Source: Rhizobium acidisoli
GTDB lineage: Bacteria; Pseudomonadota; Alphaproteobacteria; Rhizobiales; Rhizobiaceae
Assembly (NCBI RefSeq): GCF_002531755.2
Contig: NZ_CP034998.1
Location: 3,162,001 to 3,226,000 of the forward strand
Reading direction: 5' to 3'
DNA length: 64,000 nt
Made by a program: the position numbers and the translations under genes. Below the pieces are notes generated by a model. It searched no databases. It had not been told where the DNA came from and worked only from the letters and a program-made list of their open reading frames with translations. Shown here one piece after another: positions 14,111 to 33,660 of the stretch. Numbering within the stretch: position 1 is the stretch's first letter; each line of letters begins with the position of its first letter.

Positions 14111-14416
14111 TTAAAGCTTGCCCATCACCAGCTGACGGAAGCCATAAACTTCGCGCTTGCCGGAAAGGGGGATCAGCGTCACCGAACGCGTCTGTCCCGG
14201 CTCGAAGCGTACCGCCGTTCCCGCCGGGATATCGAGCCGCTTGCCATGCGCCGCCGCGCGGTCGAAGGAAAGCCCGGCATTGGTCTCGGCGAAATGATAG
14301 TGGCTGCCGACCTGCACCGGCCGATCACCGGTATTGGAAACCTCCAGCGTCACGGTCGGCGCGCCGGCATTCAGTTCGATGTCGCCGCTTGCGGCAATGA
14401 TCTCGCCCGGAATCAT
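14111..14416 (-). CDS. ureB: Urease beta subunit UreB
   Basis: A 101-residue structural subunit of the UreABC trimer. Seen: the start [18 protein letters not shown], the strand [26 protein letters not shown], and the core [19 protein letters not shown] ending in [12 protein letters not shown], all standard. A ribosome site AAGGAG is nine bases before ATG. In this operon ureA, ureB and ureC are not contiguous: a small Cys-rich gene lies between ureA and ureB, and two genes lie between ureB and ureC. Confidence 0.98.
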
Positions 14417-14687: not shown

Positions 14688-14990
14688 CTACCGGATCGGT
14701 TCGTGCACGGTGACGAGTTTGGTTCCATCCGGAAACGTCGCCTCGACCTGCACGTCATGGATCATCTCGGCAATCCCCTCCATCACCTGATCGCGGCCGA
14801 TCACATGGGCGCCGGCCTCCATCAACTCGGCGACCGGGCGGCCGTCGCGGGCGCCTTCGACGACGAAGTCGCTGATCAGCGCGATCGCTTCCGGGTAGTT
14901 CAGCTTGACACCGCGCTCCAGCCGCCGCCGGGCCACCATCGCCGCCATGGATATCAGCAGCTTGTCTTTTTCTCTCGGAGTGAGGTTCAT
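14688..14990 (-). CDS. ureA: Urease gamma subunit UreA
   Basis: A 100-residue subunit of urease. Start [20 protein letters not shown], middle [20 protein letters not shown] and [13 protein letters not shown], and end [20 protein letters not shown] match UreA throughout. The gamma and beta subunits are separate polypeptides here, as in most Gram-negative bacteria. It lies 20 bases after ureD. Confidence 0.98.
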
Positions 14991-15010: not shown

Positions 15011-15832
15011 TCATAGATTCCAGACTTTCGGCACGGGCGCACCATTGCGCAAGGCGGAAATGACCGGGATCAGGATTTTTCTCAGCGAAAAGCCGTCGGC
15101 TGCCGCAAGGCGGACGACGAGCTTGCCGTCCCAGGCGCTCTCACCGCCCATCGCGCCTTCGACGAGCAGCCGCACCTTGCCGAGATAGGCTTCCGAAAGC
15201 GGCCCGGCATAAAGCAGCGTCGCAAAAGCCACCTGCCCGCCGAGCACCGCCTGGCGCGCTGCCAGCGCCGCCACCCCTTCCGAAAGCCTCAGTTCTTCCG
15301 CATGGATCAGCCGACCTGAGCGGCGGATGCGCCAGCGGTCGCGGAAAAGCCCGGTCATCACCGTCTCGCCCATCGCCTTGCGGCCAAGCAGTATGGCTTC
15401 GACGGCCAGAAATTCGGCGCTCTCGTCGAGATCGACATCCAGGCGGCGAAAAAGTGCGGAACGATCGAAGAGGATCGTTTCCTGCGGCAGCCAGTCGACG
15501 CGGGCTTGGGTTCCGACCTTGATGCTGGTCGTCACCTCGGCCGTGCCGGCAGAGGCCTTATAGATCTTCTCGCAGGCCTGGGTGGTGACGTCGATGCGCG
15601 TGCCCGCTCCGGCCTCAATGCTCCAATCTATCCGATCGCCGCCGGTCAGTCCACCAGCGGTGTTGATGATGACGGCTTCCATCGAGGCATCGAATGTATC
15701 CGGCAGGCGGATCTTCGCCGCGCCCTCCTGGTAGAGCTCGCGCAGACGCGTGCGACCGTCGAACAGCTTTGCCGCCAGATGCCCGCGTCCTTCCGCTCTT
15801 TGCGGTCGCGTGCCTGCCGCCGCAATCATCAT
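15011..15832 (-). CDS. ureD: Urease accessory protein UreD
   Basis: A 273-residue scaffold that binds apo-urease and UreF and carries the channel through which nickel reaches the active site. Visible family core: [74 protein letters not shown] and the [14 protein letters not shown] strand. I chose the ATG at 15832, which has GAAAGGGACG just upstream and gives the standard [15 protein letters not shown] start; the frame is open 47 codons further but that part has no family similarity that I recognise. It starts the ure part of the block, about 150 bases after urtE. Confidence 0.95.
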
Positions 15833-15980
15833 AACGTCCCTTTCGGTCGCGCCACCGGTTCGCCTGATCGCGCGGGTTACGGAAAGCAAGCAATTCCCGT
15901 GCCGTCCAAGGATACGCGCAACGGGCCTGGCAGATTTGAAAGGCGCTGCGTCACCTGCCGAAAAATGCAGCATTTGCCGA

Positions 15981-16676
15981 TCAGACGGTCAGATGGCGGC
16001 GGGCCTCCGGCGTATCCAGCGTTTCGGCAAGACCCTGATGGACGATCTCGCCGCGATCCATGATGTAGACGTAGTCGGCAAGCTCCCGGCAGAAGTCGAG
16101 ATATTGTTCGACCAGCAGGATCGCCATGCCGGTGAAATCGCGGAGATAACGGATCGCCCGGCCGATATCCTTGATGATCGACGGCTGAATGCCCTCGGTC
16201 GGCTCGTCGAGCACGAGAATCCGAGGCCGCGTCACCATGGCGCGACCGATGGCAAGCTGCTGCTGCTGGCCGCCGGAAAGATCGCCGCCGCGGCGCGACA
16301 GCATCGACTTCAGCACCGGGAAGAGACTGAAGATGTCGTCGGGGATATTCCGGTCGCGACGGCCGAGTGGGGCAAAGCCGGTTTCGAGATTTTCCTTGAC
16401 CGTCAGCAGCGGGAAAATTTCCCGCCCCTGCGGCACATAGCCGATGCCCTGCTTGGCGCGGGCAAAGGGCGGCAGGCCGTTCAGCCGGGTATCGTTGAAG
16501 GTGACGGTGCCGGCCGACAGCGGATGCTGGCCGGTCACGGCACGCAGAAGCGAACTCTTGCCGACGCCGTTGCGCCCCAGCACGCAGGTGATCTTGCCCA
16601 TCTCCGCCTTGACGGAGACGCCGCGCAGCGCCTGCGCTGCGCCATAGTGCAGATTTGCGTTTTCGACTGTCAGCAT
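15981..16676 (-). CDS. urtE: Urea ABC transporter ATP-binding protein UrtE
   Basis: A 231-residue cytoplasmic ATPase of the urea importer, LivF-like. Seen: Walker [12 protein letters not shown]-loop YVPQGREIF, signature [14 protein letters not shown], Walker [17 protein letters not shown] and the switch histidine region [14 protein letters not shown] (the usual H position is read as Q in LivF-type proteins). [14 protein letters not shown] is typical for UrtE. I prefer the ATG at 16676 ([12 protein letters not shown]); an ATG four codons earlier has its purine run directly against it. Confidence 0.96.
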
Positions 16677-16694
16677 CCGTTCACCCATTCCCCA

Positions 16695-17289: not shown

Positions 17290-18045
17290 TCACCGGCCCA
17301 GATAGTTCTCGATCACCTTCGGATCCGAGCTGACGAAATCGATCGATCCCTCAGCCAGCACCGAGCCTTCCGCAAGGCATGTCACCTTGACGCCGAGGTC
17401 GCGGATGAAGCCCATGTCGTGTTCGACGACAACCACCGACCGGGTCCTTGCGATATCCTTGAGCAGGATCGCGGTCTCAGCCGTTTCGGCATCCGTCATG
17501 CCGGCCACCGGTTCGTCGACCAGCAGCAGCTTCGGCTCCTGCGCCAGCAGCATGCCGATCTCCAGCCACTGCTTCTGCCCATGCGAGAGGTTGGCGGCGA
17601 ATTCGTCGCGCCGATGCGTCAGCCGCACCGTTTCGAGGATTTCTTCGATGCGTGCCTTGTCCTCGCCCGAAAGCCGATAGAACAGCGTGGAGAACACGCC
17701 GCGGCGGCGGTTCAGCGCCAGTTCCAGGTTGTCCCACACCGTGTGGCTTTCGAAGACCGTCGGCTTCTGGAATTTGCGGCCGATGCCGAGCTCCGCAATA
17801 TCGGCCTCGTCCTTCTTGGTAAGGTCGATCGTGCCGTTGAAGAACACTTCGCCTTCATCGGGCCTGGTCTTGCCGGTGATGATATCCATCATCGTCGTCT
17901 TGCCCGCCCCGTTCGGGCCGATGATGGCCCGCAGTTCGCCGGGCTCGATGACGATCGACAGCGAATTCAGCGCCTTGAAACCGTCGAAGGAAACCGAAAC
18001 GCCGTTGAGATAAAGCACGCTGGTGGGTTTGACGTCGGGGATCAT
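17290..18045 (-). CDS. urtD: Urea ABC transporter ATP-binding protein UrtD
   Basis: A 251-residue LivG-like ATPase of the urea importer. Walker A IIGPNGAGKTT, then the long insertion typical for UrtD (DIAELGIGRKFQKPTVFESH), the signature LSHGQKQWLEIGMLLA, Walker B KLLLVDEPVAGMTDAE and the switch VVVVEHDMGFIRD are all present. The ATG at 18045 has GGAG eight bases upstream; a GTG at 18054 would overlap the urtC stop (GTGA) and add three residues, so either start is possible. Confidence 0.95.
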   Translation of the reverse strand: MIPDVKPTSVLYLNGVSVSFDGFKALNSLSIVIEPGELRAIIGPNGAGKTTMMDIITGKTRPDEGEVFFNGTIDLTKKDEADIAELGIGRKFQKPTVFESHTVWDNLELALNRRRGVFSTLFYRLSGEDKARIEEILETVRLTHRRDEFAANLSHGQKQWLEIGMLLAQEPKLLLVDEPVAGMTDAETAETAILLKDIARTRSVVVVEHDMGFIRDLGVKVTCLAEGSVLAEGSIDFVSSDPKVIENYLGR

Positions 18046-18050
18046 ACTGC

Positions 18051-19214
18051 TCACTCCGCGGCCTGAATTTTCGGTTCGATGACGTCTTCCTGCGCCACGG
18101 GTGGGGCAGCCTTGGAGACGGCTTTCCGCCTGCCGACATATTGGGCGATCGTGCCAACGACACCTTTCGGCAGAAACAGCGTGACGGCGACGAAGAGACC
18201 GCCGAGCGCAAACAGCCAGAACTCCGGGAAGAGGCCGGTGAAGATCGTCTTGCCGCCATTGACCAGGATCGCACCGATGATCGGCCCGATCAGCGTCGCC
18301 CGTCCGCCGACCGCCGTCCAGATGACCACTTCGATCGAGTTGGCAGGGGCGAATTCGCCGGGATTGATGATGCCGACCTGCGGCACATAGAGCGCGCCCG
18401 CAATGCCCGCCATCATCGCCGAGACGACGAAGGTGAAGAGCTTGAAGTGTTCGACGCGATAGCCGAGGAAGCGCGTGCGGCTTTCGGCATCGCGCACGCC
18501 GACCAGCACCTTGCCGAACTTCGAGCGCACGATGGCCGAGGCAAGCAGCAGCGACAGCGCCAGCAAGACCGCGGTTGCCGCAAAGAGGGCTGCACGCGTG
18601 CCGTCGGCCTGGACGTTGAAGCCGATAATATCCTTGAAATCGGTGAGGCCGTTATTGCCGCCGAAGCCCATGTCGTTGCGGAAAAAAGCCAGCAGCAGCG
18701 CGTAGGTCATCGCCTGGGTGATGATCGAGAGATAGACGCCGTTGACGCGCGAGCGGAAGGCGAACCAGCCGAAAACAAAGGCGAGCAGGCCGGGCACGAC
18801 GAGTACCATCAGTGCCGCAAACCAGAAATGGTTGAAGCCGTACCAGAACCAGGGCAGATCCTTCCAGTTCAGGAACACCATGAAATCGGGCAGGATCGGG
18901 TCGCCGTAGCTGCCGCGGGTGCCGATCTGGCGCATCAGATACATGCCCATCGCATAACCGCCGAGCGCAAAGAAGGCGCCGTGGCCGAGCGAGAGAATGC
19001 CGCAGAAGCCCCAGACGAGATCGAGCGTCAGCGCCAGCAGCGCATAGGTCAGATACTTGCCGAACAGCGACATGATATAGGTCGGCACATGCAGCGGATT
19101 GGTCGGCCCGGTCATCAGGTTCAGGACCGGCACGAGAACGGCGACCAGTAGCAGCAGCGCGATGGCAATGACGATCTTGCGATCGAGTGACCGGAGAAGG
19201 AAGGCCGTTATCAT
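18051..19214 (-). CDS. urtC: Urea ABC transporter permease UrtC
   Basis: A 387-residue LivM-like inner-membrane permease with about ten hydrophobic helices, beginning MITAFLLRSLDRKIVIAIAL. Family marks: LVWGFCGILSLGHGAFFALG, MGMYLMRQIGTRGSYGDPIL, NGLTDFKDIIGFNVQADGT, RDAESRTRFLGYRVEHFKLF and TAVGGRATLIGPIIGAILVN. The polar C-terminus is about 40 residues long. Its ATG overlaps the urtB stop (ATGA), so the two channel halves are translated together. Frame continues upstream inside urtB only as an overlap. Confidence 0.96.
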   Translation of the reverse strand: MITAFLLRSLDRKIVIAIALLLLVAVLVPVLNLMTGPTNPLHVPTYIMSLFGKYLTYALLALTLDLVWGFCGILSLGHGAFFALGGYAMGMYLMRQIGTRGSYGDPILPDFMVFLNWKDLPWFWYGFNHFWFAALMVLVVPGLLAFVFGWFAFRSRVNGVYLSIITQAMTYALLLAFFRNDMGFGGNNGLTDFKDIIGFNVQADGTRAALFAATAVLLALSLLLASAIVRSKFGKVLVGVRDAESRTRFLGYRVEHFKLFTFVVSAMMAGIAGALYVPQVGIINPGEFAPANSIEVVIWTAVGGRATLIGPIIGAILVNGGKTIFTGLFPEFWLFALGGLFVAVTLFLPKGVVGTIAQYVGRRKAVSKAAPPVAQEDVIEPKIQAAE

Positions 19215-20863
19215 GCTTCCACCGCCCTTCCTTTGAGTGCGAAGAGCCCGCGCGGACGCTTCTGGATGAAGAGAATGATGAGGACGAGCACCAGGATCTT
19301 GCCGAGCACGGCGCCGGCGAAGGGCTCGAGGAACTTGTTGACGACGCCGAGCGAAAGGGCGCCGACCAGCGTGCCCCAGAGATTGCCGACACCGCCGAAG
19401 ACGACGACCATGAAGCTGTCGATGATGTAGGATTGGCCGAGATTCGGCGAGACGTTGTCGATCTGGCTGAGCGCCACGCCGGCAATACCGGCAATGCCCG
19501 AACCGAGCGCGAAGGTGAAGGCATCGACCCAGCCGGTGCGGATGCCCATCGAGGACGCCATGCGGCGGTTCTGCGTGACGGCGCGCATCTGCAGGCCGAA
19601 GGCCGACCGCTTGAGCAGCAGGAGCAGCGTCACGAAGACGACCATCGAAAAGACGATGATCCACAGTCGGTTCCAGGTGATCGAGAGCCCGCCGAGATCG
19701 AAGACGCCGGACATCCAGCTTGGATTGCGGACCTCGCGGTTGGTCGGGCCGAAGATGCTGCGCACGGCCTGCTGCAGGATCAGCGACACGCCCCAGGTGG
19801 CGAGCAGCGTTTCCAGCGGGCGGCCGTAGAGATAGCGAATGACGGCGCGCTCGATCACCAGGCCGACGAAACCGGTAAAGACGAAGGCGGCAGGCACGGC
19901 AAAGGCAAGCGAATAGTCCGCCACGCCGGGGAAGGCCGAGGTGATGTATTCCTGCACGACATAGGTCGTATAGGCCCCGATCATCACCATTTCGCCATGC
20001 GCCATGTTGATGACGCCCATAACGCCGAAGGTGATGGCAAGGCCGATCGCGGCAAGCAGCAGCACCGAGCCGAGCGACAAGCCGTACCAGACGTTCTGGG
20101 CGACATCCCAAAGCGCCAAGCTGCGATTGATGGTGCTGATATCGGCCTGGATCGCAGGCTTCAGATCGTCAGGCGCGGTTTCGAGCGTGGTCGTGAGGAT
20201 GGTCAGCGCATCGCGATTGCCGCGAGCCGCGATCGTATCGATCGCAGCCTTCTTGTCTTCGACGCTCGCATCCGTCTTCAGCAGCAGCACTGCACGCGCC
20301 GCTTCCATCGTATTCTTGATCTCGGCGTCCTTTTCGGCCGCAAGCGCCGCGTTCAGCAGGTCGAGGTTGGCGGGATCGGCGTCTTTCAGCAGACCCTGTG
20401 CCGCGGCGAGCCGCGCCGAGCGGTCTGGGCTCATCAGCGTCAGCTGGCTGGTGGCGGCGCTGATCACACCGCGAAGTGCGTTGTTGATCTTGACCTTGGT
20501 CATCATGTCAGGGTCGACATCGGCGGCGGCTTCGCCGGTGATTGGATCGGAATAGGTCGGTTCGTCATCGGTGCCGCCCTGGAGGAGCACCGGGCCGCCG
20601 TCGGAATTGACGTAGAGCAGGCCGTCGCTCAACTGCTGCAGGATCTGGTTGACATGCGGGTCCTTGGAGGCGACCAGCGTCTTGATGGCCGCTTCGCGCT
20701 CCGGGAAGTCGCCGATGCCGAGCGCATCGATGAGCACGTGGATATCGTCCTCGGCCCAAACTTCGCTCGATGCTGCCAGGCCCGGAAATGCGAGGCCGGA
20801 AAGTGTCGGGCCCGAGAATGTCAGGCAGACAGTGATGAGGAAAATCTTTATGGCGCGATACAT
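19211..20863 (-). CDS. urtB: Urea ABC transporter permease UrtB with periplasmic N-terminal domain
   Basis: A 550-residue permease. After a signal-like segment (residues 3-30) comes a helical region of roughly 230 residues outside the membrane (FPEREAAIKTLVASKDPHVN, ASVEDKKAAIDTIAARGN) that looks like HEAT-type repeats; the LivH-like channel follows from about residue 255 with GLSLGSVLLLAAIGLAITFG, GVINMAHGEMVMIGAYTTY and FGGVGNLWGTLVGALSLG. The long N-terminal domain is normal for UrtB but its job is unknown. I took the ATG at 20863 as start; upstream codons lack a signal peptide. Confidence 0.95.
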   Translation of the reverse strand: MYRAIKIFLITVCLTFSGPTLSGLAFPGLAASSEVWAEDDIHVLIDALGIGDFPEREAAIKTLVASKDPHVNQILQQLSDGLLYVNSDGGPVLLQGGTDDEPTYSDPITGEAAADVDPDMMTKVKINNALRGVISAATSQLTLMSPDRSARLAAAQGLLKDADPANLDLLNAALAAEKDAEIKNTMEAARAVLLLKTDASVEDKKAAIDTIAARGNRDALTILTTTLETAPDDLKPAIQADISTINRSLALWDVAQNVWYGLSLGSVLLLAAIGLAITFGVMGVINMAHGEMVMIGAYTTYVVQEYITSAFPGVADYSLAFAVPAAFVFTGFVGLVIERAVIRYLYGRPLETLLATWGVSLILQQAVRSIFGPTNREVRNPSWMSGVFDLGGLSITWNRLWIIVFSMVVFVTLLLLLKRSAFGLQMRAVTQNRRMASSMGIRTGWVDAFTFALGSGIAGIAGVALSQIDNVSPNLGQSYIIDSFMVVVFGGVGNLWGTLVGALSLGVVNKFLEPFAGAVLGKILVLVLIILFIQKRPRGLFALKGRAVEA

Positions 20864-20979
20864 CGGCTTTCTCGCCCTTGAGTGTGTTGGCCTCGCGGCG
20901 CAATCGCTGGGACGGAGCTTCCGCCCGGGTGTCAAACCCGGACGGAAGTCTTCAGGCAATCATCTGATCGGGGTCGTAC

Positions 20980-22272
20980 TCAGGAGCCCTTGCCGCCGCA
21001 CTTGCCGGTGGCAACGTTGAAGTTGCCGCAGGACATCGGCTTGCGCCAATCGGAGATCAGGTCCTTGGAGTCGGGCAGGTAATCCGACCATTCGTCGCCG
21101 ACGACGGCGGGCGTCTGCTGGACGATTTCGAACTGGCCGTTGGCCTGGATTTCACCGATCAGCACCGGCTTGGTGATGTGGTGGTTCGGCATGACGGTCG
21201 CATAACCGCCGGAGAGGTTCGGAACGCTGACGCCGATGATGGAGTCGAGAACCTTGTCGGTATCGGTCGTGCCGGCAGCCTGGACGGCCTTAACCCATGC
21301 GTTGAAGCCGATATAGGCAGCTTCCATCGGGTCGTTCGTCACGCGCTTGTCGTTCTTGGTATAAGCGTGCCAGTCCTTGATGAACTTCTTGTTGGCCGGG
21401 CTTTCCACAGACTCGAAATAGTTCCAGGCAGCGAGATGGCCGACAAGCGGCTTGGTGTCGAGGCCGGCAAGTTCTTCTTCGCCGACCGAGAAGGCGACGA
21501 CGGGAATGTCGGTTGCCTTGATGCCCTTGTTGCCCAATTCCTTGTAGAACGGAACGTTGGCGTCGCCGTTGATCGTCGAGACGACGGCGGTCTTCTTGCC
21601 GGCCGAACCGAATTCCTTGATCTTGGAAACTTCGGTCTGCCAGTCGGAGAAGCCGAACGGCGTATAGTTGGTCATGATGTCTTCTTTCGGAATACCCTTC
21701 GAAATTAGGTACGCCTCGAGAATCTTGTTTGTGGTGCGCGGATAGACGTAGTCGGTGCCTTCAAGAACGAAGCGCTTGACGCCTTCTTTTTCCATCAGGT
21801 AGTCGACGGCCGGAATGGCCTGCTGGTTCGGAGCAGCACCGGTATAGAAGATGTTGCGCGAGGATTCTTCGCCTTCATACTGCACGGGGTAGAAGAGCAG
21901 CGAATTCAACTCTTCGAACACCGGCAGAACGGACTTGCGCGACGAGGACGTCCAGCAACCGAAGACGGCGGCAACCTTGTCCTTCTGGATCAGCTCGCGG
22001 GCCTTTTCGGCAAACAGCGGCCAGTCGGAAGCCGGATCGACGACGACGGCCTCGAGCTTCTTGCCGAGAAGGCCGCCCTTTTTGTTCTGCTCGTCGATGA
22101 GCATCAACATGGCGTCTTTCAGCGTGGTTTCGGAAATCGCCATCGTGCCGGAAAGCGAATGCAATACGCCGACCTTGATCGTGTCGTCGGCGGCGAGCGC
22201 GCCCTGGAAGGCGGCCGATGCCGCCATGACGGCACCGAGCGCAGCGCCGGTGATCGTGGATCTGAGATTCAT
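20980..22272 (-). CDS. urtA: Urea ABC transporter substrate-binding protein UrtA
   Basis: A 430-residue periplasmic urea-binding protein, LivJ/AmiC-like. Signal peptide MNLRSTITGAALGAVMAASA ending at LA-AD, then IKVGVLHSLSGTMAISETTL, VVVDPASDWPLFAEKARELI, AAVFGCWTSSSRKSVLPVFE and LLFYPVQYEGEESSRNIFYT, all diagnostic of UrtA. The ATG at 22272 has GAGGGG about nine bases upstream. It is the first gene of the urt-ure block; gene order urtABCD-(x)-urtE then ure shows import and hydrolysis of urea are co-organised. No convincing sigma-54 promoter was seen in the 189 bases upstream, although nitrogen control is expected. Confidence 0.97.
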   Translation of the reverse strand: MNLRSTITGAALGAVMAASAAFQGALAADDTIKVGVLHSLSGTMAISETTLKDAMLMLIDEQNKKGGLLGKKLEAVVVDPASDWPLFAEKARELIQKDKVAAVFGCWTSSSRKSVLPVFEELNSLLFYPVQYEGEESSRNIFYTGAAPNQQAIPAVDYLMEKEGVKRFVLEGTDYVYPRTTNKILEAYLISKGIPKEDIMTNYTPFGFSDWQTEVSKIKEFGSAGKKTAVVSTINGDANVPFYKELGNKGIKATDIPVVAFSVGEEELAGLDTKPLVGHLAAWNYFESVESPANKKFIKDWHAYTKNDKRVTNDPMEAAYIGFNAWVKAVQAAGTTDTDKVLDSIIGVSVPNLSGGYATVMPNHHITKPVLIGEIQANGQFEIVQQTPAVVGDEWSDYLPDSKDLISDWRKPMSCGNFNVATGKCGGKGS

Positions 22273-22416
22273 TTGGTTGAGCCCCTCTTCTTGTTCCGCA
22301 ACAGGCCGGAAACGGAATTTAACTGTTGCCGAGGGGACTATCGGGTGCTGCATCGCAAAATCACATACGCAAAATGACGTAGGTGCAGGGGGCAAACGAA
22401 CAGGCCGGACAGCGAA

Positions 22417-22442
22417 GGGCATCCCCGCAATTGGGAATGCCC
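22417..22442 (-). terminator. Possible weak terminator after the PAP2 gene
   Basis: A ten-pair hairpin (one G-U on the minus-strand RNA) between GGGCATTCCC and GGGGATGCCC with a six-base loop, 20 bases after the phosphatase stop and upstream of urtA. The following bases are TTCGCTG, not a real T-run, so it may instead shape the urtA leader. Confidence 0.4.
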
Positions 22443-22461: not shown

Positions 22462-24366
22462 CTATCCTTCGATCGTCAGGGTGACGGAGGTCGGGCCGTA
22501 AGAGAGGCTCCCCTTGTGGCCGGAGATGGTGAGCTTGCCGAAGGTGCCGGAAAGGGTGCCTGCCTTCAGGATCTCGATCTTCGTTCCGGCCGCCGGGACA
22601 AAACCATCGGCAAGCGTCACGTCGAGATCGCCGGCCAGCGCTGCTTTGCCCTCGACAACAAGCGTGCCGACGCCGTTCGCACCGAGCGCCAGTTTCGCCG
22701 TCGCATTGGCGGATTGCTGATAGTCGCCGCCGACCGTCAGCGGCTTGTCGGCCGCCACAACGAGCGAACCGCCATCGACCGTCAGTCCCCCGCTGCCGAA
22801 AGCCGAGGACGATCCGGCCACCAGCGTGCCCTCTTCGAGCACGGTGCCGCCGGCATAGCTGTTGGCGCCCGATAGTCCGAGGATGCCGCTGCCGCGCTTC
22901 ACCAGCTTGCCCTTGCCGCCGATGTCGTTGCGCCAGCTGTCGATCGCATCGAAGCCGCCCTTTGCCGCATCCATCGTCACCGTCACATCCTGGTCGAAGG
23001 CGCCGTATCCGTCGGCGGCGGCAAACAGGTTGAGGCGGCCATAACCTTCCGCGTCGTCGAGGAGCGGATAGCCGGACGCGATCTCGGTCGTCTTCAGCAC
23101 CTCACGGCGCTGCTCGCCGTCGAGATAGGGCAGACGCGTTTCGAGAAGCGCTTCGGCGCCCTGCGGCACGCGGGCCGGCTGATCGGTCGGATGGATCGTC
23201 GGCAGGCCGTAGCTCAGGCGCTGCAGCACGTAGGCGCGATTGGCGTCATGATTGGCAAAACGGTCCGCGGCGATCGGCGCCGCATGCGCGGCGACTTCGA
23301 GCGCGCCCGTATCGGCAACGCCGGATTTGGCGATCAGCCAGGACTGTGCCTGGGCGTAAGCATCGCTCTTCAGCCCGGCATTGTCGGCCTTGTTCAGATT
23401 GTAGACGACCGTCGCGGTACCGAGCATGCGGCCGCCCATCACGTCGAGCGGGGAATGCATGCCGGCAAGGATGCGGTCCTCACCCAGCTCGCTGGCGCGC
23501 GTGATCATTTCCTGGAAGCGCTGCGGCACGAGATAGGCCATGGCGAGCGCATCCCGCCAGGCTTCCGCCGTATGTCCGCTCGGGAAGCCGCCGTCCTCGA
23601 CCGGCTTGCCGCTCTTGGCGGACTCGAGCGTCGGGACGACCGAGACGTCCTGGCTCCAGCGGTAGGGACGGCCATATTTGAAATAGCGCTTGGCGGGCTC
23701 CGTCGAGCCATCACCGCTGGCGGCGTTGATGAAGTCGATTGCAAGGCCCATGTCCGGATTGGCATCGGTCTTGTTTTCGGTGTCGGGCTTGCTGCCGGCG
23801 CCGCGATTGTTGCCCTTGTCGTCATATTTGACCGTCGTCGCATCGGCGGCCACCTCGGTGATCGTGGTGGTCTGCTTGGAGCCGGCCTTCCACGCATCGG
23901 TCAGAGGACCGAGGCCGTCGACGATGCTGGTATTCTTGCCGCGCCGGTCGTCCAGGTAGGCGGCCACGGCCTGCTCGGCCGTCCGCGCCTTGGTCACCTT
24001 GACGGCATAGGCGATGTTCGCATCATGGACGGCCTGGTTGACGATCTGGCCGTCGGTCTTGCTGGCGGGAATGCCATCCCAATCCGTCTTGGCGACCGCC
24101 GGGCAATTGTCTTTGGCCGGCGCTTCGACGCCCGCATCGACGAATGGCGTGCGCGGGGTCCAGACTTCGAGGAAACCGGAGAGAAGATGAACGGCGGCAT
24201 TGGTGTCCACCGTCGAGAAGCAGGCGTCACCGCGCTTGTTGGTGTTTCCCGTCTCGGCATAAGGCGCTTTCGCCGCCGTGGCCTGCTCGGCGACGGCAAG
24301 CGACGGCACGATCGAAACGAGGCAGACGAGGGCGGTGCTCAGGCGGAAAAAGCTTGAAACAGACAT
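22462..24366 (-). CDS. Secreted PAP2/class A-type acid phosphatase with autotransporter-associated repeat
   Basis: A 634-residue exported protein. Signal peptide SFFRLSTALVCLVSIVPSLAVA. Residues about 60-360 are a PAP2/vanadium-haloperoxidase-type phosphatase: a KYGRPYRW segment (K-x6-RP-like), GGFPSGHTAEAWRDA (PSGH motif), and EDRILAGMHSPLDVMGGRML (R-x5-H-x3-D). After a linker comes an autotransporter-associated beta-strand repeat near residue 500 (GSGILGLSGANSYAGGTVLE) and a beta-helix-like tail of Gly-, Ala- and Val-rich strands ending LSYGPTSVTLTIEG. No outer-membrane beta-barrel follows, so it is not a classical autotransporter. The frame stays open far upstream across the divergent gene's leader, but the ATG at 24366 begins the signal peptide. 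Confidence 0.85.
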   Translation of the reverse strand: MSVSSFFRLSTALVCLVSIVPSLAVAEQATAAKAPYAETGNTNKRGDACFSTVDTNAAVHLLSGFLEVWTPRTPFVDAGVEAPAKDNCPAVAKTDWDGIPASKTDGQIVNQAVHDANIAYAVKVTKARTAEQAVAAYLDDRRGKNTSIVDGLGPLTDAWKAGSKQTTTITEVAADATTVKYDDKGNNRGAGSKPDTENKTDANPDMGLAIDFINAASGDGSTEPAKRYFKYGRPYRWSQDVSVVPTLESAKSGKPVEDGGFPSGHTAEAWRDALAMAYLVPQRFQEMITRASELGEDRILAGMHSPLDVMGGRMLGTATVVYNLNKADNAGLKSDAYAQAQSWLIAKSGVADTGALEVAAHAAPIAADRFANHDANRAYVLQRLSYGLPTIHPTDQPARVPQGAEALLETRLPYLDGEQRREVLKTTEIASGYPLLDDAEGYGRLNLFAAADGYGAFDQDVTVTMDAAKGGFDAIDSWRNDIGGKGKLVKRGSGILGLSGANSYAGGTVLEEGTLVAGSSSAFGSGGLTVDGGSLVVAADKPLTVGGDYQQSANATAKLALGANGVGTLVVEGKAALAGDLDVTLADGFVPAAGTKIEILKAGTLSGTFGKLTISGHKGSLSYGPTSVTLTIEG

Positions 24367-24543: not shown

Positions 24544-27500
24544 ATGGCAGCGCGCCAACGCATCATTCCGGTAAGACGCGAATATAATCGCTGGGTCGCC
24601 AACCAGACGCTGGAAGATTACGCGCTGCGCTTCACCGCAAAGAGCGCCCGCCATTTCTCCTCCCAGCGCATCGCCCAGACGGCGATCGGCGCGATCTCCT
24701 TCCTGGCGCTGGAAGCGATCGGCGGCGCCATCACCCTTTCCTACGGCACCACCAACGCCTTCTATGCCACTATCGTCGCTTCGATCGCCATGCTGGCGAT
24801 CGGCCTGCCGATCAGTCGCTACGCCATCCGCCACGGCGTCGACATCGATCTTCTGACCCGCGGCGCCGGCTTCGGCTATATCGGCTCGACCATCACCTCG
24901 CTGATCTATGCGAGCTTCACCTTCATGCTGTTTGCGATCGAGGCGTCGATCATGTCCGGGGCGCTGGAACTCACCCTCGGCATCCCCCTCTGGATCGGCT
25001 ACATCCTCAGCGCCGTCATGGTGATCCCGCTGGTGACGCACGGCGTGCGGCTGATCAGCAAGTTCCAGCTGATGACACAGCCCTTCTGGATCGTGCTGAA
25101 CATCCTGCCCTTCATCTTCATCGCTTTCATGGACTGGGAGAAATTCGATCTCTGGCGCGCCTTTGCCGGCATCCGCCATGCCTCAGGGCCGCCCGGCACC
25201 GTCGCCGATTTCAATCTGGTGGAGTTCGGCGCCGCCTCCGCCGTCATCCTGGCGCTGATGTCGCAGATCGGCGAACAGGCCGACTTCCTGCGCTTCCTGC
25301 CGCCGGAGCCGCGGCGCAAGTGGCGCCATCGCCTCGCTGTCTTTCTCGCCGGCCCCGGCTGGGTCGTCATCGGCGCGCCGAAGCTGCTTGCGGGATCGTT
25401 CCTGGTCGTGTTGACCCTGGCCTCGGGCGTGCCGGTCGATCGCGCCGCCGACCCGGCGCAGATGTATCTGACCGCTTTCGGTTACATGGTCCCCTGGCAG
25501 AATGCCGCGCTGTTGCTAATGGCAGCCTTCGTCGTCGTCTCGCAGCTGAAGATCAACGTGATGAATGCCTATGCCGGCTCACTCGCCTGGTCGAACTTTT
25601 TCTCGCGGCTGACCCACAGCCACCCCGGCCGCGTCATCTGGCTGGTCTTCAACGTCGCCATCGCCCTGCTTTTGATGGAACTCGGCATCTACCGGCTGCT
25701 GGAGGAGACGCTCGGCATCTTCTCGATCATCGCCATGGCCTGGCTTTGCACAATCTCCGCCGATCTCTGCATCAACAAGCCGCTTGGCCTTGCGCCGCCC
25801 GGCATCGAGTTCAAACGCGCCCATCTCTACGACATCAACCCGGTCGGGCTCGGCGCCATGACGCTGTCGGCGACGGTATCGCTGATTGCCCATTTCGGCG
25901 CCTTCGGCGCGACGGCCGCCTCGCTCGCTCCCTATATCACCCTCGTCATCGCGCTCATCGCCTCGCCCGCGCTTGCCTGGGCGACGAAAGGCAGGTTCTA
26001 CCTCGCCCGCAAGCCGCGCCACAGCTGGAAGAACCTGACAAGCATCACCTGCTCCGTCTGCGAGCATCCCTTCGAGCCGGAGGACATGGCCTGGTGCCCG
26101 GCCTATGCCGCGCCGATCTGTTCGCTCTGCTGCTCGCTCGACAGCCGCTGCCACGACATGTGCAAGCCGGCCGCCCGTCTCAACGCCCAGGTCGGCACCG
26201 TCGCCAAGGCGCTGCTGCCGGAGACTGTGCTTGGCAAGCTGACGACGCGCCTCGGCCGCTACGGCATAGCCGTCGTGCTGGCCTTGACCGCCATCGGCGC
26301 GATCCTGGCGATGATCGCCCATCAGGTCGCCGCCGGCTCGCCTGAGACGGCCGAGGTCGTCAACCGCACCATCCTCATCGTCTTCTTCGTCTTCTCGGTG
26401 ATTTCAGGTGTCGTCTGCTGGTTCTATGTGCTCGCCCATGACAGCCGCGTCGTCGCCGAGGAGGAATCCTCGCGCCAGAACACGCTGCTGCTCAAAGAGA
26501 TCGCCGCCCACAAGAAGACCGATACCGCCTTGCAGAGCGCCAAGGAAACGGCCGAGGCTGCCAACCGCGCCAAGAGCCGCTATGTCGTGGGCTTGAGCCA
26601 CGAACTGCGCACGCCGCTGAACGCTGTGCTCGGCTATGCCCAGATCCTCGAGCGCGACGAAACCATCCCGGCGCCGCGCCAATCCTCGATCAAGGTTATC
26701 CGTCGCAGTGCCGAGCACCTCTCCGGCCTGATCGACGGCCTGCTCGATATCTCCAAGATCGAGGCCGGCCGCCTGCAGGTCTATTCCAATGAGATCAACA
26801 TCCAGGATTTCCTCGATCAGATCGTCGACATGTTCCGCCCGCAGGCGCAGGCAAAAGGGCTTGCCTTCACCCACGAGCGCGCGCCGGCCTTGCCGCAATT
26901 TGTCCGCACCGATGAAAAACGGCTGCGCCAGATCCTCGTCAACCTGCTCTCCAATGCCATCAAATTCACCGACGAGGGCAGCGTCACCTTCGATGTCGCC
27001 TATCGCAGCCAGGTTGCGACCTTCACCGTCACCGATACCGGCCGCGGCATCACGGAAAAGGATCTGACGCGCATCTACGAACCCTTCCAGCGCGGCGAGG
27101 CCGAAAGCGTGCGGCCGATGCCGGGCCTCGGCCTCGGCCTCACCATCACCCGGCTTCTGACCAACACGCTCGGCGGCGAGATTGCGGTTTCAAGCGTCAA
27201 GGACGAGGGCTCGACGTTCCGCGTCCGCCTCATGCTATCGGCGGTCATGCGCGCCGTGGCCGCGGCGCCACAAGAAAAGCGCATCGCCGGATATGACGGC
27301 CCGCGCCGCACGGTGGTTGTCGTCGACGATAACGAAGATCATCGCGAGATGATGCGCGAAATCCTGGCGCCTCTCGATTTCATCGTTCTGACGGCGGCAG
27401 GCGGCGCCGAATGCCTGACGCTGATCGAGGGCATCATGCCTGATCTTTTCCTCGTCGATATCCTGATGCCCGGCATGAACGGCTGGCAGCTCGTCTCGCG

Positions 27501-27933
27501 TCTGCGCGAGGCCGGCCAGACGGCGCCGATGCTGATGCTTTCGGCCAATATCGGCGACGCGGCCGTTCTCAGCGACAGCGACGACAGCCACAATGATGCG
27601 ATCGGCAAGCCGGTCGACATCCGCCAGCTGCGCGACAAGCTGGCTTTGCATCTTGGCCTGACATGGCTCTACGCCGACGCTGCTGCAGCAGCCCTTCCTG
27701 TGAAGACCGAAGCGCCGATGCTGAGCCCGGGTGCCGCCCATGTGCAGGAATTGCTGCGGCTCGGCGAAATCGGCTATATCAGAGGCATCGAGGCCAAGCT
27801 TTCGGACCTTGCCAAGGTGGAAGCAAATCAGCCATTCACCGACAAACTCTACGCCTATGTCGCCGTCTTCGATCTCGCCGGCTTCATGACCTTCCTGCAC
27901 GACTTCGACGAAAAGGTGGAATCCATTGGCTGA
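24544..27933 (+). CDS. NCS1 permease-histidine kinase-receiver fusion sensor
   Basis: A 1129-residue hybrid sensor. Residues 1-480 form a 12-helix NCS1-type permease (VANQTLEDYALRFTAKSAR, LALEAIGGAITLSYG, MSQIGEQADFLRFLPP, VVSQLKINVMNAYAGSLAWS). Residues 503-540 carry eight cysteines in the pattern CxxC-x11-C-x7-CxxCC-x5-C-x3-C. Two more membrane helices follow (about 577-600, 612-635), then a coiled coil, a HisKA domain (SHELRTPLNAVLGY, phospho-His 686), an HATPase domain (NLLSNAIKF, DTGRGI, GLGLGLTI) and a receiver (VVVDDNEDHREMM, Asp 972, Lys in GKPVD) plus a helical C-terminal tail. ATG at 24544 has AAGGAAG upstream. The stop overlaps the next response regulator by eight bases. Ligand unknown: family members carry cytosine, uracil, allantoin, hydantoin or thiamine. 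Confidence 0.9.
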   Translation: MAARQRIIPVRREYNRWVANQTLEDYALRFTAKSARHFSSQRIAQTAIGAISFLALEAIGGAITLSYGTTNAFYATIVASIAMLAIGLPISRYAIRHGVDIDLLTRGAGFGYIGSTITSLIYASFTFMLFAIEASIMSGALELTLGIPLWIGYILSAVMVIPLVTHGVRLISKFQLMTQPFWIVLNILPFIFIAFMDWEKFDLWRAFAGIRHASGPPGTVADFNLVEFGAASAVILALMSQIGEQADFLRFLPPEPRRKWRHRLAVFLAGPGWVVIGAPKLLAGSFLVVLTLASGVPVDRAADPAQMYLTAFGYMVPWQNAALLLMAAFVVVSQLKINVMNAYAGSLAWSNFFSRLTHSHPGRVIWLVFNVAIALLLMELGIYRLLEETLGIFSIIAMAWLCTISADLCINKPLGLAPPGIEFKRAHLYDINPVGLGAMTLSATVSLIAHFGAFGATAASLAPYITLVIALIASPALAWATKGRFYLARKPRHSWKNLTSITCSVCEHPFEPEDMAWCPAYAAPICSLCCSLDSRCHDMCKPAARLNAQVGTVAKALLPETVLGKLTTRLGRYGIAVVLALTAIGAILAMIAHQVAAGSPETAEVVNRTILIVFFVFSVISGVVCWFYVLAHDSRVVAEEESSRQNTLLLKEIAAHKKTDTALQSAKETAEAANRAKSRYVVGLSHELRTPLNAVLGYAQILERDETIPAPRQSSIKVIRRSAEHLSGLIDGLLDISKIEAGRLQVYSNEINIQDFLDQIVDMFRPQAQAKGLAFTHERAPALPQFVRTDEKRLRQILVNLLSNAIKFTDEGSVTFDVAYRSQVATFTVTDTGRGITEKDLTRIYEPFQRGEAESVRPMPGLGLGLTITRLLTNTLGGEIAVSSVKDEGSTFRVRLMLSAVMRAVAAAPQEKRIAGYDGPRRTVVVVDDNEDHREMMREILAPLDFIVLTAAGGAECLTLIEGIMPDLFLVDILMPGMNGWQLVSRLREAGQTAPMLMLSANIGDAAVLSDSDDSHNDAIGKPVDIRQLRDKLALHLGLTWLYADAAAAALPVKTEAPMLSPGAAHVQELLRLGEIGYIRGIEAKLSDLAKVEANQPFTDKLYAYVAVFDLAGFMTFLHDFDEKVESIG

Positions 27934-28843
27934 GCCGGCCCTGCCCCGCGACATCGTTCTGCTCGTCGACGACTCGCCCGAAGCGCTCGGCTTCCTGACC
28001 GACGCGCTCGAACAATCCGGCTTCTCCGTGCTGATCGCCACATCGGGCGCGGCAGCCCTTGGCATCGTCGAGCGCATCACACCTGATCTCATCCTGCTCG
28101 ACGCCGTCATGCCCGCCATGGATGGCTTCGAGACCTGCCGCAAGCTGAAGGCAAATGCGGCGGTGGCGCAGGTGCCCGTCATCTTCATGACCGGCCTGAC
28201 CGAGACCGAGCATGTCGTGCACGCGCTGGAATCCGGCGGCGTCGACTATCTCGCCAAGCCGATCAATATCGACGAGCTGCGCGCCCGCATCCGTGTCCAT
28301 CTGCGCAATGCCCGCTCGGCGCAAAGCGCCCGCGTGGCGCTCGACGCGGCCGGCCGCCATCTGCTGGCGGTCAAGGGCGACGGCGCAATCCATTGGTCGA
28401 CGCCGCAGGCAACACGGCTGGTCAATGCCGCCATGGGCAGCGACGAGGGCATGGAAATCGTCGTCCGCCATATCGCCGGCTGGATGCGCGAGCGTGCAGC
28501 CGCCGTGCGCGACGGCATCATCTCCATCGCCCATGCCGGCCAGGCGGCACTGCAGCTTGCTTTTCTCGGCGCGATCGGCCCGGATGAATATCTCTTCCGC
28601 CTGACCGCCGCCAATCAGCGCAGCGACGACGAGATGCTGCGCCAGCGCTTCTCGCTCACCCAGCGCGAATCCGAAGTGCTGCTCTGGATCGCCAAGGGCA
28701 AGGCCAACCGCGACATCGGCGAAATATTGGGACTGTCGGCGCGCACGGTGAACAAGCACCTCGAACAGATCTACGTGAAGCTCGGCGTCGAGAACCGGGC
28801 ATCGGCCGCCGTCAAGGCCACGCATGTACTGCACGAGATGTGA
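27926..28843 (+). CDS. LuxR-type response regulator paired with the NCS1-kinase
   Basis: A 305-residue regulator. Receiver domain in residues 9-125 with IVLLVDDSPEALGFL, the phospho-acceptor in LILLDAVMPAMDGF, MTGLTETE and the conserved lysine in YLAKPINID. A middle region of about 100 residues without known motif (AGRHLLAVKGDGAIHW, then MGSDEGMEIVVRHIAG) leads to a LuxR/GerE helix-turn-helix (LTQRESEVLLWIAKGKANRD, LSARTVNKHLEQIY). The start is TTG at 27926, with AAGGTGG six bases upstream, and it overlaps the kinase gene by eight bases, so expression is coupled. It should be the DNA-binding output of the sensor. Confidence 0.92.
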   Translation: MAEPALPRDIVLLVDDSPEALGFLTDALEQSGFSVLIATSGAAALGIVERITPDLILLDAVMPAMDGFETCRKLKANAAVAQVPVIFMTGLTETEHVVHALESGGVDYLAKPINIDELRARIRVHLRNARSAQSARVALDAAGRHLLAVKGDGAIHWSTPQATRLVNAAMGSDEGMEIVVRHIAGWMRERAAAVRDGIISIAHAGQAALQLAFLGAIGPDEYLFRLTAANQRSDDEMLRQRFSLTQRESEVLLWIAKGKANRDIGEILGLSARTVNKHLEQIYVKLGVENRASAAVKATHVLHEM

Positions 28844-29028: not shown

Positions 29029-30153
29029 TTACTTAGTCTCCTGCGGCACGTAGGTGTACTTGCCGTCTGCGCCCTTCTTCCATTCGTACATGATGTAACC
29101 AGGAATCTTCGGGTCACCCTTTTCGTCGAACGAAATGTCGCCGAGAACCGTCGTGAACGGGCCCTTTTCCTTCATGGCCGTGGCGACGGCTTCAGGATCG
29201 ACCGAACCGGCAGCCTTGGCGGCACCGGCGATCGCCTGCATCGCAGCGTAGGAATAAAGCGTGTAGGCTTCCGGGTTGAAACCGGCAGCCTTGAACTTTT
29301 CGACGAGTTCCTTGTTGGCCGGGTTCAGTGTCGGATCAGGACCGAAGGTGTTCAGGGTGCCGGCAACGGCGTCGCCAGCGATCGAGGCCAGTTCGTTCGA
29401 AACGATACCATCGCCCGAAACCAGCGTTGCCTTCAGGCCCTGATCGGCGGCCTGACGGATGATGAGACCGGCTTCGGTGTGCAGACCGCCCCAATAGATG
29501 ATCGAGACGCCGGCTTCCTTCATCTTGGCGATGAGGGCCGAGAAGTCCTTGTCGCCGACGTTGATGCCTTCGTACATGACTTCCGTCAGGCCGGCAGCAT
29601 TCATCGCCTTCTTGGTTTCGTCGGCAAGACCCTGACCGTAAGGTGTCTTGTCGTGAACGACGGCGATCTTGGCGTCCTTGAAGTGATCGGCAAGATACTT
29701 GCCGGCGATGGCGCCCTGCTGGTCGTCACGGCCGCAGGTACGGAACGTGTTCCAGAGACCGCGTTCCGTAAACTTCGGGTTCGTAGCAGCCGGAGTGATT
29801 TCGAGGATGCCGTTTTCGGCATAGACTTCCGAAGCCGGGATCGAAACGCCCGAGTTGAAGTGGCCGATGACGAACTTGACGCCGTCGGCAACGAATTTAT
29901 TGGCGACCGAAATGCCCTGCTTCGGGTCGGAGACGTCGTCGCCGAGCTCGAGCTTGATCTGCTCGCCATTGATGCCGCCAGCCGCGTTGATATCGGCGGC
30001 CGCCTGCTCGGCGCCCTTCTGGAGCTGAGCGCCGAACGCAGCGTTCGGGCCGGTCAGCGGACCAGCGACAGCGATGAGAACGTCGGCCCATGCGTTGCCG
30101 CTGAAGGCGACCATCGCCGTCAGAGCCACCGCCGACAGAAGAGACTTCTTCAT
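29029..30153 (-). CDS. braC: Branched-chain amino acid ABC transporter substrate-binding protein BraC
   Basis: A 374-residue periplasmic binding protein (LivJ/BraC). Signal peptide [20 protein letters not shown] ending at WA-DV, then [58 protein letters not shown], the ligand-binding [15 protein letters not shown] and the Cys in [11 protein letters not shown]. In R. leguminosarum the bra operon order is braD-E-F-G with braC last, and that is what is seen here, which supports the name. Binds leucine, isoleucine, valine and probably other amino acids. It is preceded by a small membrane-protein gene and has about 120 bases of its own leader. Confidence 0.95.
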
Positions 30154-30273
30154 ATTGTTACTCCCAATTTTTGGGCGGGTTCCGGTCCAAGGCCCAGCGC
30201 ACTACCCACCATTGACTGCGCCAGGAAAGCTGTTCCACTCTGAAGGCAATTCATGCCTAGTTTCAACGGACTG

Positions 30274-30627
30274 TCAATGTTTGTCCTTCCACGAAAACGC
30301 GGAAGTTTTTTCGTACAGCCAGTAATAGTTGTTGACCATCTGATTGGTGCGGCGAAAGCGGAAGCCGGCGGTCGAGAAGACCAGCAGCGTCACGAAATCG
30401 ATGCCGTAGAAGAGAGCGCTGAGCATCGGCCCATCGAACAGGGCGTGATGCAGGAACTGCATCGCCCAGGCGAGCAGGAAAGTGTAGACAACTGTCAGCG
30501 GATAGTCGCTCCAGCCTTCGGCAACCGCCTTGCCGGCGCGCCAGGCCGTCCAGAAGCCGATCAGCACGACGATCGCGCGGATGATCAAGCGGGCACCGGT
30601 ATCGCTTTCGAAGAAAAGTCCCTGCAT
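30274..30627 (-). CDS. Small membrane protein of the bra operon (DUF6867 type)
   Basis: A 117-residue protein with three or four hydrophobic segments (LIIRAIVVLIGFWTAWRAG, VYTFLLAWAMQFLHHALF, YGIDFVTLLVFSTAGFRF) and an aromatic, charged tail NNYYWLYEKTSAFSWKDKH. No catalytic motif. It resembles a family of uncharacterised proteins kept in liv/bra operons of alphaproteobacteria, which I recall as DUF6867; the label should be checked. It lies 19 bases after braG and 120 bases before braC on the same strand, suggesting an accessory role in amino acid transport. Confidence 0.75.
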   Translation of the reverse strand: MQGLFFESDTGARLIIRAIVVLIGFWTAWRAGKAVAEGWSDYPLTVVYTFLLAWAMQFLHHALFDGPMLSALFYGIDFVTLLVFSTAGFRFRRTNQMVNNYYWLYEKTSAFSWKDKH

Positions 30628-30646
30628 GTTAAACTCTCCCTTCGAG

Positions 30647-31390
30647 CTAGTGTCTTCCGCCTTCGAGATAGGCGGCGCGGACCTCAGGATTGGCGAGCAG
30701 TTCCTTGCCGGAGCCGCTCATCGTCACCTTGCCGTTCACCATCACGTAAGCGCGGTGCGAAAGCCTCAGCGCAGCGAACGCGTTCTGCTCGACGAGGAAA
30801 ACGGTGAGGCCTTCCTGTTCGTTGAGCTTGCGGATCGCCTCGAAGATGCCCTTGACGATCAGGGGCGCAAGGCCGAGCGAGGGTTCGTCGAGCAACAGTA
30901 GCTTCGGCCGCGCCATCAGCGCACGGCCGATCGACAGCATCTGCTGCTCGCCGCCCGAAAGCGTGCCGCCGCGCTGGGCGTGGCGTTCCTTGAGGCGCGG
31001 GAAGAGCGTGAAGATCTTCTCAACGTCTTCAGCGAAGTATTTGAGATTGTCGAGGCCGGCGCCCATCTGGAGATTTTCCAGAACCGTCATGCGCGGGAAG
31101 ATGCGGCGTCCCTCAGGCGACTGCGCTATGCGCAGACGGGCGATTTCGTGGGTCGGCATGCGGGTGATGTCGCGGCCCTCGAAGACGACCGAGCCGGTCC
31201 GGGCCTGCGGGCTGCCGCAGATCGTCATCATCAGCGTCGACTTGCCGGCGCCGTTGGCGCCGATCAGGCTGACGATCTCGCCCTTGTTGACGTGGACATC
31301 GATGCCGGCCAGCGCACGAATATTGCCATAATAGGTTTCGACGCCCTTCACCTGAAGGAGCGCTTGATCCGTCATTACTTCATCGCCCAT
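30647..31390 (-). CDS. braG: Branched-chain amino acid ABC transporter ATPase BraG (LivF)
   Basis: A 247-residue ATPase. Walker A LIGANGAGKST, Q-loop IAQSPEGRRIFPRMTV, signature LSGGEQQMLSIGRALM, Walker B KLLLLDEPSLGLAPLIV and LVEQNAFAALRLS are LivF features. GAAGGAGG lies nine bases before the ATG at 31390, and that ATG overlaps the braF stop in TGATG, giving coupled translation. An ATG five codons inside has a weaker site. Confidence 0.96.
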   Translation of the reverse strand: MGDEVMTDQALLQVKGVETYYGNIRALAGIDVHVNKGEIVSLIGANGAGKSTLMMTICGSPQARTGSVVFEGRDITRMPTHEIARLRIAQSPEGRRIFPRMTVLENLQMGAGLDNLKYFAEDVEKIFTLFPRLKERHAQRGGTLSGGEQQMLSIGRALMARPKLLLLDEPSLGLAPLIVKGIFEAIRKLNEQEGLTVFLVEQNAFAALRLSHRAYVMVNGKVTMSGSGKELLANPEVRAAYLEGGRH

Positions 31391-33656: not shown

Positions 33657-33660
33657 GACG

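Follow-up and report, generated by a model that had tools for sequence, protein, structure and literature searches.

We analysed a 64,000-nucleotide stretch of the Rhizobium acidisoli contig NZ_CP034998.1 (positions 3,162,001 to 3,226,000, hereafter the window, within which all coordinates are counted), which encodes a hybrid sensor histidine kinase with a transporter-type sensor domain. A stretch reading GGAAGGAAG precedes the ATG of this gene, which has the following parts (AF2, AlphaFold2):

24544..27933, + strand: hybrid sensor histidine kinase with NCS1-type sensor domain, 1129 amino acids, uninterrupted reading frame
24544..26019, + strand: NCS1-like 12-helix domain, residues 1-492 (AF2 model)
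26050..26163, + strand: eight-cysteine module, residues 503-540, C-x2-C-x11-C-x7-C-x2-CC-x5-C-x3-C
26248..26445, + strand: two further membrane helices, about residues 569-598 and 602-634, continuing into a signalling helix (AF2 model, hydropathy)
26572..27237, + strand: kinase core, HisKA and HATPase_c, with His686 (Pfam, motifs)
27313..27642, + strand: receiver domain with Asp972 (Pfam, motifs)

Architecture and family of the kinase

A preliminary description, made from the letters alone, had read this single frame as a transporter-type domain, eight cysteines, two helices, a kinase core and a receiver, and this order was confirmed by Pfam, catalytic motifs, the AF2 model and hydropathy. HisKA (residues 677-742), HATPase_c (789-898) and the receiver (924-1033) matched above the Pfam cut-offs. 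The catalytic motifs are complete, with His686 in an SHELRTP H-box, the N-box at 800, G1 at 831, G2 at 861 and the receiver Asp972, so that the phospho-acceptor His, the N and G boxes and the receiver Asp of a hybrid histidine kinase are all present; His686 and Asp972, both named in the preliminary description, lie in intact motifs. For residues 1-660, the AF2 model (built from 40 sequences; mean predicted local distance difference test score (pLDDT) 82.1) and helix hydropathy are consistent with 12 + 2 membrane helices. In the model the cysteines sit in a long, positively charged segment after helix 12, predicted to be cytoplasmic because an even number of helices precedes it and the kinase follows after two more. 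C-terminal to the receiver, residues 1034-1129 (27643-27930) had no Pfam match and are possibly a phosphotransfer-like or dimerisation piece.

At the curated Pfam cut-off PF02133 (NCS1) matched none of the 39 family members scanned, and the window's sensor domain alone returned no Pfam family. Using hhalign, a kinases-only profile matched a CodB/NCS1 profile with an E-value of 1.4e-18 (probability 99.1), the control with an UrtB-type permease giving 0.32, and a kinase-less relative (P0242) matched PF02133 with an E-value of 1.1e-9. The nearest solved structures are the cytosine transporter CodB and the hydantoin transporter Mhp1, NCS1 being the closest fold among the LeuT-type families; SLC5 structures rank far under both in this comparison, which was interpreted for the transporter part only, the cysteine module being folded separately. 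Pfam gave no SSF (SLC5) match in the kinase at E-values up to 1, and searches against PDB sequences gave no direct match for the transporter domain at E-values up to 10 and none for a distant relative (P0243) at 0.01. By architecture, conservation and fold, all computed, the sensor domain is a divergent NCS1-type transporter fold; because Pfam does not see it directly, the link to NCS1 rests on profile comparison, fold or kinase-less relatives. The transporter-like sensor of NCS1 type put forward in the preliminary description thus held, and the 12-helix permease with a PF02133 domain that it expected held in part, its NCS1 similarity being clear by profile-profile comparison and fold and the direct PF02133 match being absent.

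Residues 1-655 as query matched 20 of the 289 genomes searched in the class and 39 of the 299 in the phylum; among the latter, one genome (G444) matched only through a kinase-less transporter and another (G461) has such a transporter plus its kinase. The closest named relative is from Rhizobium (99% over 552 residues). Members are named "hybrid sensor histidine kinase", "ATP-binding protein" or ArcB in databases, and among the names seen the sensor domain is reflected only in some "purine-cytosine permease" labels (JGI, a few from NCBI). Kinases of 894 and 885 amino acids lacking the receiver lie beside formamidase genes at L135:6663-9347 and L136:6499-9156. In a plasmid collection 342 Klebsiella records matched, at least two of them being chromosome-type permease copies; the plasmid copies are often annotated as ATP-binding protein or ArcB among the rows listed, and one Klebsiella pneumoniae IncFIB/IncFII plasmid (L184) carries a full amiF-urtEDCBA / kinase-regulator module. 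Our literature search, in which few subscription journals were covered, met no description of a sensor kinase of NCS1 type. The acid-response table of R. tropici in PMC5936775 includes a hybrid kinase, which is not identified with this gene.

The same subfamily also occurs without a kinase. A chromosomal Klebsiella "cytosine permease" (L182:8944-10551), with 38-48% identity to the sensor domains recovered alongside it, lies directly behind the urease operon and is probably a urea/amide permease. A protein search added kinase-less relatives from Acinetobacter, Moraxella, Rosenbergiella, Salinisphaera and Streptomyces, of about 535-560 amino acids and named cytosine or allantoin permease in databases. 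For residue counts we used 118 of 122 permease ids (P0242-P0363), excluding four outside 500-600 amino acids; these 118 rows are at least 64% identical to the query and so not independent.

The eight cysteines (503, 506, 518, 526, 529, 530, 536 and 540) are all C in the 136 kinase rows of an alignment of 138 rows (two gapped rows are kinase-less transporters, the window's gene is present twice and 80 rows come from Rhizobium-type loci) and in 40/40 rows of a set under 85% identity, so the ordered, conserved segment of the preliminary description stands and random scatter among homologues was not seen. Of 299 genomes searched with a model of the module only, 38 contained matches, 42 in total and every one in this kinase family. 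Structure prediction of the segment, which had been suggested as a check, gave a hairpin and a helix in two models (residues 1-660, and residues 488-558 alone with a mean pLDDT of 73); its finger-like Foldseek matches, which include many RING, ZZ, PHD, FYVE and LIM fingers among the best, were non-significant (best E-value 0.37). Eight conserved possible metal ligands are the count expected of a double-zinc (RING/PHD/FYVE-like) finger.

In the permeases Cys503, Cys506 and Cys526 are kept in 118/118 rows and Cys529 in 117/118, position 518 is C in 50 and S in 68, position 530 is never C, and 536 and 540 are alignment gaps. All eight cysteines are present in the Methylovirgula permease, and most have been lost from the Arthrobacter U41 and Tsukamurella permeases. 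The module is thus kept strictly where a kinase follows and relaxed in most kinase-less members, and because this strictness tracks the kinase and 530, 536 and 540 are commonly lost together, the pattern suggests two metal sites, 503/506/526/529 and 518/530/536/540. Two stronger versions were discarded: the eight cysteines as a hallmark of the kinase, given the Methylovirgula permease, and a clean 4+4 split, given the C at 518 in 50 of 118 permeases. Metal or redox sensing by the cysteines, as first proposed, found no support; the pattern fits instead a structural double zinc site at the joint of transporter and kinase.

Neighbouring genes and a candidate operator

The kinase gene is followed by a response regulator gene and lies near genes for urea transport and urease, which are listed with a candidate operator (ABC, ATP-binding cassette):

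27926..28843, + strand: response regulator, receiver and LuxR-type helix-turn-helix, 305 amino acids (PF00072, PF00196)
22366..22381, no strand: palindrome TACGCAAAATGACGTA, candidate operator of the response regulator, lying about 94 bp upstream of urtA, whose inferred start is 22272
20980..22422, - strand: urtA, urea ABC transporter binding protein (TIGR03407 above cut-off, PF13433)
19211..20959, - strand: urtB (TIGR03409 above cut-off)
18051..19208, - strand: urtC, start approximate (TIGR03408 above cut-off)
17290..18054, - strand: urtD (TIGR03411 above cut-off)
15981..16688, - strand: urtE (TIGR03410 above cut-off)
15011..15973, - strand: ureD (PF01774)
14688..14990, - strand: ureA, urease gamma subunit (NF009712 above cut-off)
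14111..14416, - strand: ureB, urease beta subunit (NF009682 above cut-off)

If the TTG is taken as its start, the regulator gene shares its first 8 bases with the end of the kinase gene, and a related regulator stands beside the kinase in 48 of the 49 kinase-bearing loci listed (the exception being L136). The start of urtA is probably 22272, judging from the signal peptide. A gene for a PAP2-type phosphatase with autotransporter-associated repeats (22462-24300, - strand) lies between urtA and the kinase, and a branched-chain-amino-acid-type ABC transporter cluster (29029-34602, - strand) just downstream of the regulator gene. Defence-system models gave no matches.

We counted gene context at 53 kinase loci in 49 genomes, drawn from the 55 distinct genomes matched in the class and phylum searches after leaving out near-copies (G322, G380, G519 and G531), a fragment (G491) and the kinase-less G444. 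A binding protein of UrtA/FmdD type lies within 12 kb of the kinase at 44 of the 53 loci, about 0.5 being expected from copy number and genome size; a full-length FmdA formamidase does so at 35/53, and one or the other at 46/53. With two loci that adjoin urease (L139 and L175), urea/amide context was found at 48/53. Binding-protein matches were taken down to an E-value of 1.6e-99, and a few on other contigs (e.g. G365, G413, G521) were omitted, which cannot lower the count of 44 and would raise the chance figure slightly; UrtD and UrtE were not used as markers, since they match any ABC ATPase. Seven further loci from annotated records included five with urea/amide genes within 6 kb upstream. 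The common order has the binding protein and ABC transporter divergent from the kinase-regulator pair, with FmdA, AmiF/AmiE or urease ending the transport operon.

We also opened 11 records of kinase-less relatives, 9 of which have the permease beside urea/amide genes or the kinase: urease in Klebsiella and A. ursingii, ureC near a truncated permease copy on an A. pittii plasmid, fmdA in Moraxella and Tsukamurella, a kinase-regulator pair with formamidase and aliphatic amidase nearby in Methylovirgula, an aliphatic amidase nearby in Arthrobacter U41, and the kinase itself, divergent from the permease, in two Acinetobacter records; at L225 kinase and regulator are divergent. The Methylovirgula record also has, between permease and aliphatic amidase (L224:8848-9165), a short UrtA-like stretch (53-61% identical over some 100 residues) that may be what is left of a urtA-type gene. 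Another record (L219, CAKLQH020000001.1), filed as "Acinetobacter phage MD-2021a", has ordinary bacterial genes around kinase and permease and looks mislabelled.

The palindrome pattern TACGY-N6-RCGTA was derived from a footprint of Rhizobium upstream regions and then used for scanning, having been fixed after most loci had been viewed. It matched once in the window (0.03 expected). Across 55 loci there are 38 palindromes within 450 bp upstream of the kinase, spread over 35 loci at 1.54 per kb, against 11 elsewhere (0.0116 per kb), of which at least 5 precede urtA, fmdA or an amidase gene (L009, L171, L172, L176, L224). With seven more loci added, an exact palindrome was found in this 450-bp interval at 37/62 loci and one with up to one mismatch at 42/62, the figures for control windows being 6/1102 and 23/1102. 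All 80 Rhizobium-type loci have a palindrome within 2.6 kb upstream of the kinase, where the reversed pattern occurs 0 times; it sits near -100 in 42 and near -2200 in 36. The PAP2 gene stands between kinase and urtA in the near -2200 cases, as in the window (the gene having been confirmed in few loci), and the 42 near -100 loci look as if it were absent there. In the 7.5-Mb genome that contains the window there are four palindrome sites, against 46 for the reversed pattern; the three other exact sites are at C1:337800, C1:1832982 and C2:465703, one of them in a flagellin-like cluster as judged by eye. No sigma-54 element was found upstream of urtA and the kinase with up to 3 mismatches.

Proposed function and alternative explanations

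Urea, formamide and acetamide are small molecules with an O=C-NH2 group. In the transporter core T126, E133, Q241, E244, Q245, D247, R250, Q334, K336, N338 and N341 never vary, either in the kinases (135 or 136 rows with a letter) or in 118/118 permeases. In the alignment with CodB, W108 pairs with L/F129, N275 with Q334 and G112 with E133, and F204 is matched by position 235, which is mostly I/L/V in kinases and mostly C in permeases; in CodB itself W108 and F204 stack on the base. These aromatics of the nucleobase site are not kept in the kinases, and a polar pocket without the stacking pair would suit urea or short amides better than a flat base. In transmembrane helix 1 (TM1), E57 is found in 135/135 kinase rows with a letter there, position 56 being L, C or M, and in all 118 permeases these positions are D56 and F/M57 (the tree set of 12 permeases includes one with Q57), which makes this pair a candidate receptor-versus-transporter switch.

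In a tree of 69 rows the 12 permeases fall on one side of a branch (support 100/98) and the hybrid kinases form one group (99/97). As to whether the kinase was lost or gained, the outgroup branches are long and the fork placing two non-hybrid kinases outside has support of 91/41. The starred branches force at least six changes of the urea label and at least seven of the amide label; because the contexts change so often, one receptor type probably serves both urea and amides. Two ligand-specific clades, one for urea and one for amides, were considered and dropped, as the receptors do not split by context in this tree.

We favour, with a probability of about 0.62, a two-component system for urea and short-chain amides with an NCS1-fold receptor, coupling through the cysteine module and a palindrome-binding regulator; gene linkage and the conserved palindrome are computed, and we infer the ligand, the zinc, the signal path and the binding of the regulator to DNA. 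A divergent NCS1-fold transporter would have been reused as receptor for urea, formamide and acetamide, ligand in the central site shifting the last helices and the cytoplasmic eight-cysteine module. The module, most likely a double-zinc RING/PHD-like finger, would relay the change, by way of the extra pair of membrane helices and the signalling helix, to His686, from which phosphate may pass through the fused receiver (Asp972), straight to the adjacent LuxR-type regulator, or both. The regulator would then bind TACGY-N6-RCGTA and activate urtABCDE, probably together with urease, in the window's own genome; in relatives it would activate amidases and amide transport of the fmd type.

We hold with slightly less confidence, at little better than even odds, a wider reading: an undescribed, proteobacteria-wide family of urea/short-amide receptors that joins an NCS1-type permease to a kinase via a new double-zinc module without a Pfam family. 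On this wider reading the kinase-less permeases, the chromosomal one of Klebsiella among them, would form an unrecognised class of urea/amide uptake proteins attached to ureases and formamidases, and the regulon would be marked by a single palindromic operator all the way from Rhizobium to Acinetobacter.

Several results weigh against a urea/amide system of this kind. At five of the 53 loci no such gene lies within 12 kb (G260, G033 and G162, from one genus, G051, and G384, where 366 bases of contig precede the sensor match), and two of the seven further loci (Sinorhizobium and Ensifer) have none within 6 kb upstream, the Sinorhizobium neighbours including a dicarboxylate symporter and a Cache-type kinase. 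The permeases on a Streptomyces plasmid and in another Arthrobacter have no such neighbours within 7 kb. The exact palindrome is missing upstream in 25 of 62 loci; among 12 fresh loci it was present in 6 (L184, L186, L219, L224, L280, L285) and missing in L185, L281, L282, L283, L284 and L286, and none was found in the unlinked urt/fmd stretches examined in G260, G033, G051 and G384. Finally, a transporter domain need not be the sensor, because the SLC5 domain of the kinase CbrA is reported to be non-essential for signal perception (PMC9100948).

Among the alternatives the best placed, though unlikely, is a transceptor: urea or amides would be carried by the NCS1 domain itself, and the kinase would follow the transport cycle (flux) and not binding alone. 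The polar core residues common to kinases and kinase-less permeases would fit this, as would PMC13022988, where CbrA, with its histidine transport domain, is described as a transceptor. Against it, the TM1 difference between kinases and permeases is as expected if coupling differs, and Amt5, a kinase with an ammonium-transporter domain, binds but does not efficiently translocate its ion (PMC8534201). We consider somewhat less probable again that the signal (nitrogen status, a product such as ammonium, or metal/redox state at the cysteines) is read in the cytoplasm, with the transporter as anchor or tuner only. The report on the SLC5 domain of CbrA (PMC9100948) and the invariant, predicted cytoplasmic cysteines agree with that; against it, the transporter core is conserved as strictly as in the kinase-less permeases, and metal or redox sensing would not predict linkage to urea/amide genes.

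The nucleobase, allantoin or hydantoin ligand of the preliminary description, for which the NCS1 fold, the nearest structures and the database names of relatives would speak, is improbable and was dropped as the leading idea on gene context and the lost stacking residues, since the recurrent catabolic genes around the kinase and close permeases are of urea/amide and not purine type (from the gene lists read) and the sole hydantoinase neighbourhood is that of Rhodococcus, a distant relative. Purine breakdown can also yield urea as an end product, so an indirect link to purines may exist. The urea/amide receptor remains the reading that we prefer; on it the kinases form a conserved receptor family whose ligand class can be predicted, with a cysteine module that is new and an operator that is a candidate, the ligand first guessed for it being probably wrong.

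Comparison with known systems

The conversion of transporter folds into receptors has been studied in few kinases (CbrA, CrbS, RpuS and Amt5 among them). If our reading is right, a further transporter family has been recruited, with a different coupling module, and close kinase-less relatives let the receptor-specific changes be read off (E57 against D56, eight cysteines against four or five). Bacteria would then have a dedicated sensor for urea and short amides that enables nitrogen-use genes to be switched on, a class of urea/amide permeases would be predicted among proteins now annotated as cytosine or allantoin permease, and annotations of ArcB type would be corrected.

The likeness to CbrA-type kinases noted in the preliminary description is supported: CbrA, CrbS and RpuS likewise have a transporter-type membrane domain fused to a histidine kinase, CrbS and RpuS are hybrid as well, and the partner regulators of these SLC5/STAC kinases control nutrient-use genes, as proposed here (PMC5715377, PMC9100948, PMC13022988). 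CrbR, of the LuxR family, acts at an inverted repeat (PMC5715377), and RpuR at a direct repeat (PMC5715377, PMC9100948, PMC13022988). The window's kinase differs in its membrane domain (NCS1-type, not SLC5), in having the eight-cysteine module and two extra helices where those kinases have a STAC domain (no dedicated STAC model was searched), and in its neighbours, which are urea/amide genes instead of acetate, pyruvate or histidine genes. Ks-Amt5 is likewise a transporter of a nitrogen compound turned kinase receptor (PMC5764959, PMC8534201), but of the Amt family and with ammonium as ligand. CodB and Mhp1 are 14-15% identical to the sensor domain and have no kinase attached; the sensor domain has lost the stacking aromatics of CodB and has an invariant charged core (E133, E244, K336). 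The "allantoin/cytosine permeases" of Klebsiella, Acinetobacter and Streptomyces belong to the same subfamily, with the same core residues and usually a cysteine tail, but have mostly four or five of the eight cysteines, and D56 with F/M57 in place of E57. In its transporter family, coupling module and targets, the window's kinase therefore belongs neither to the SLC5/STAC nor to the Amt-type kinases.

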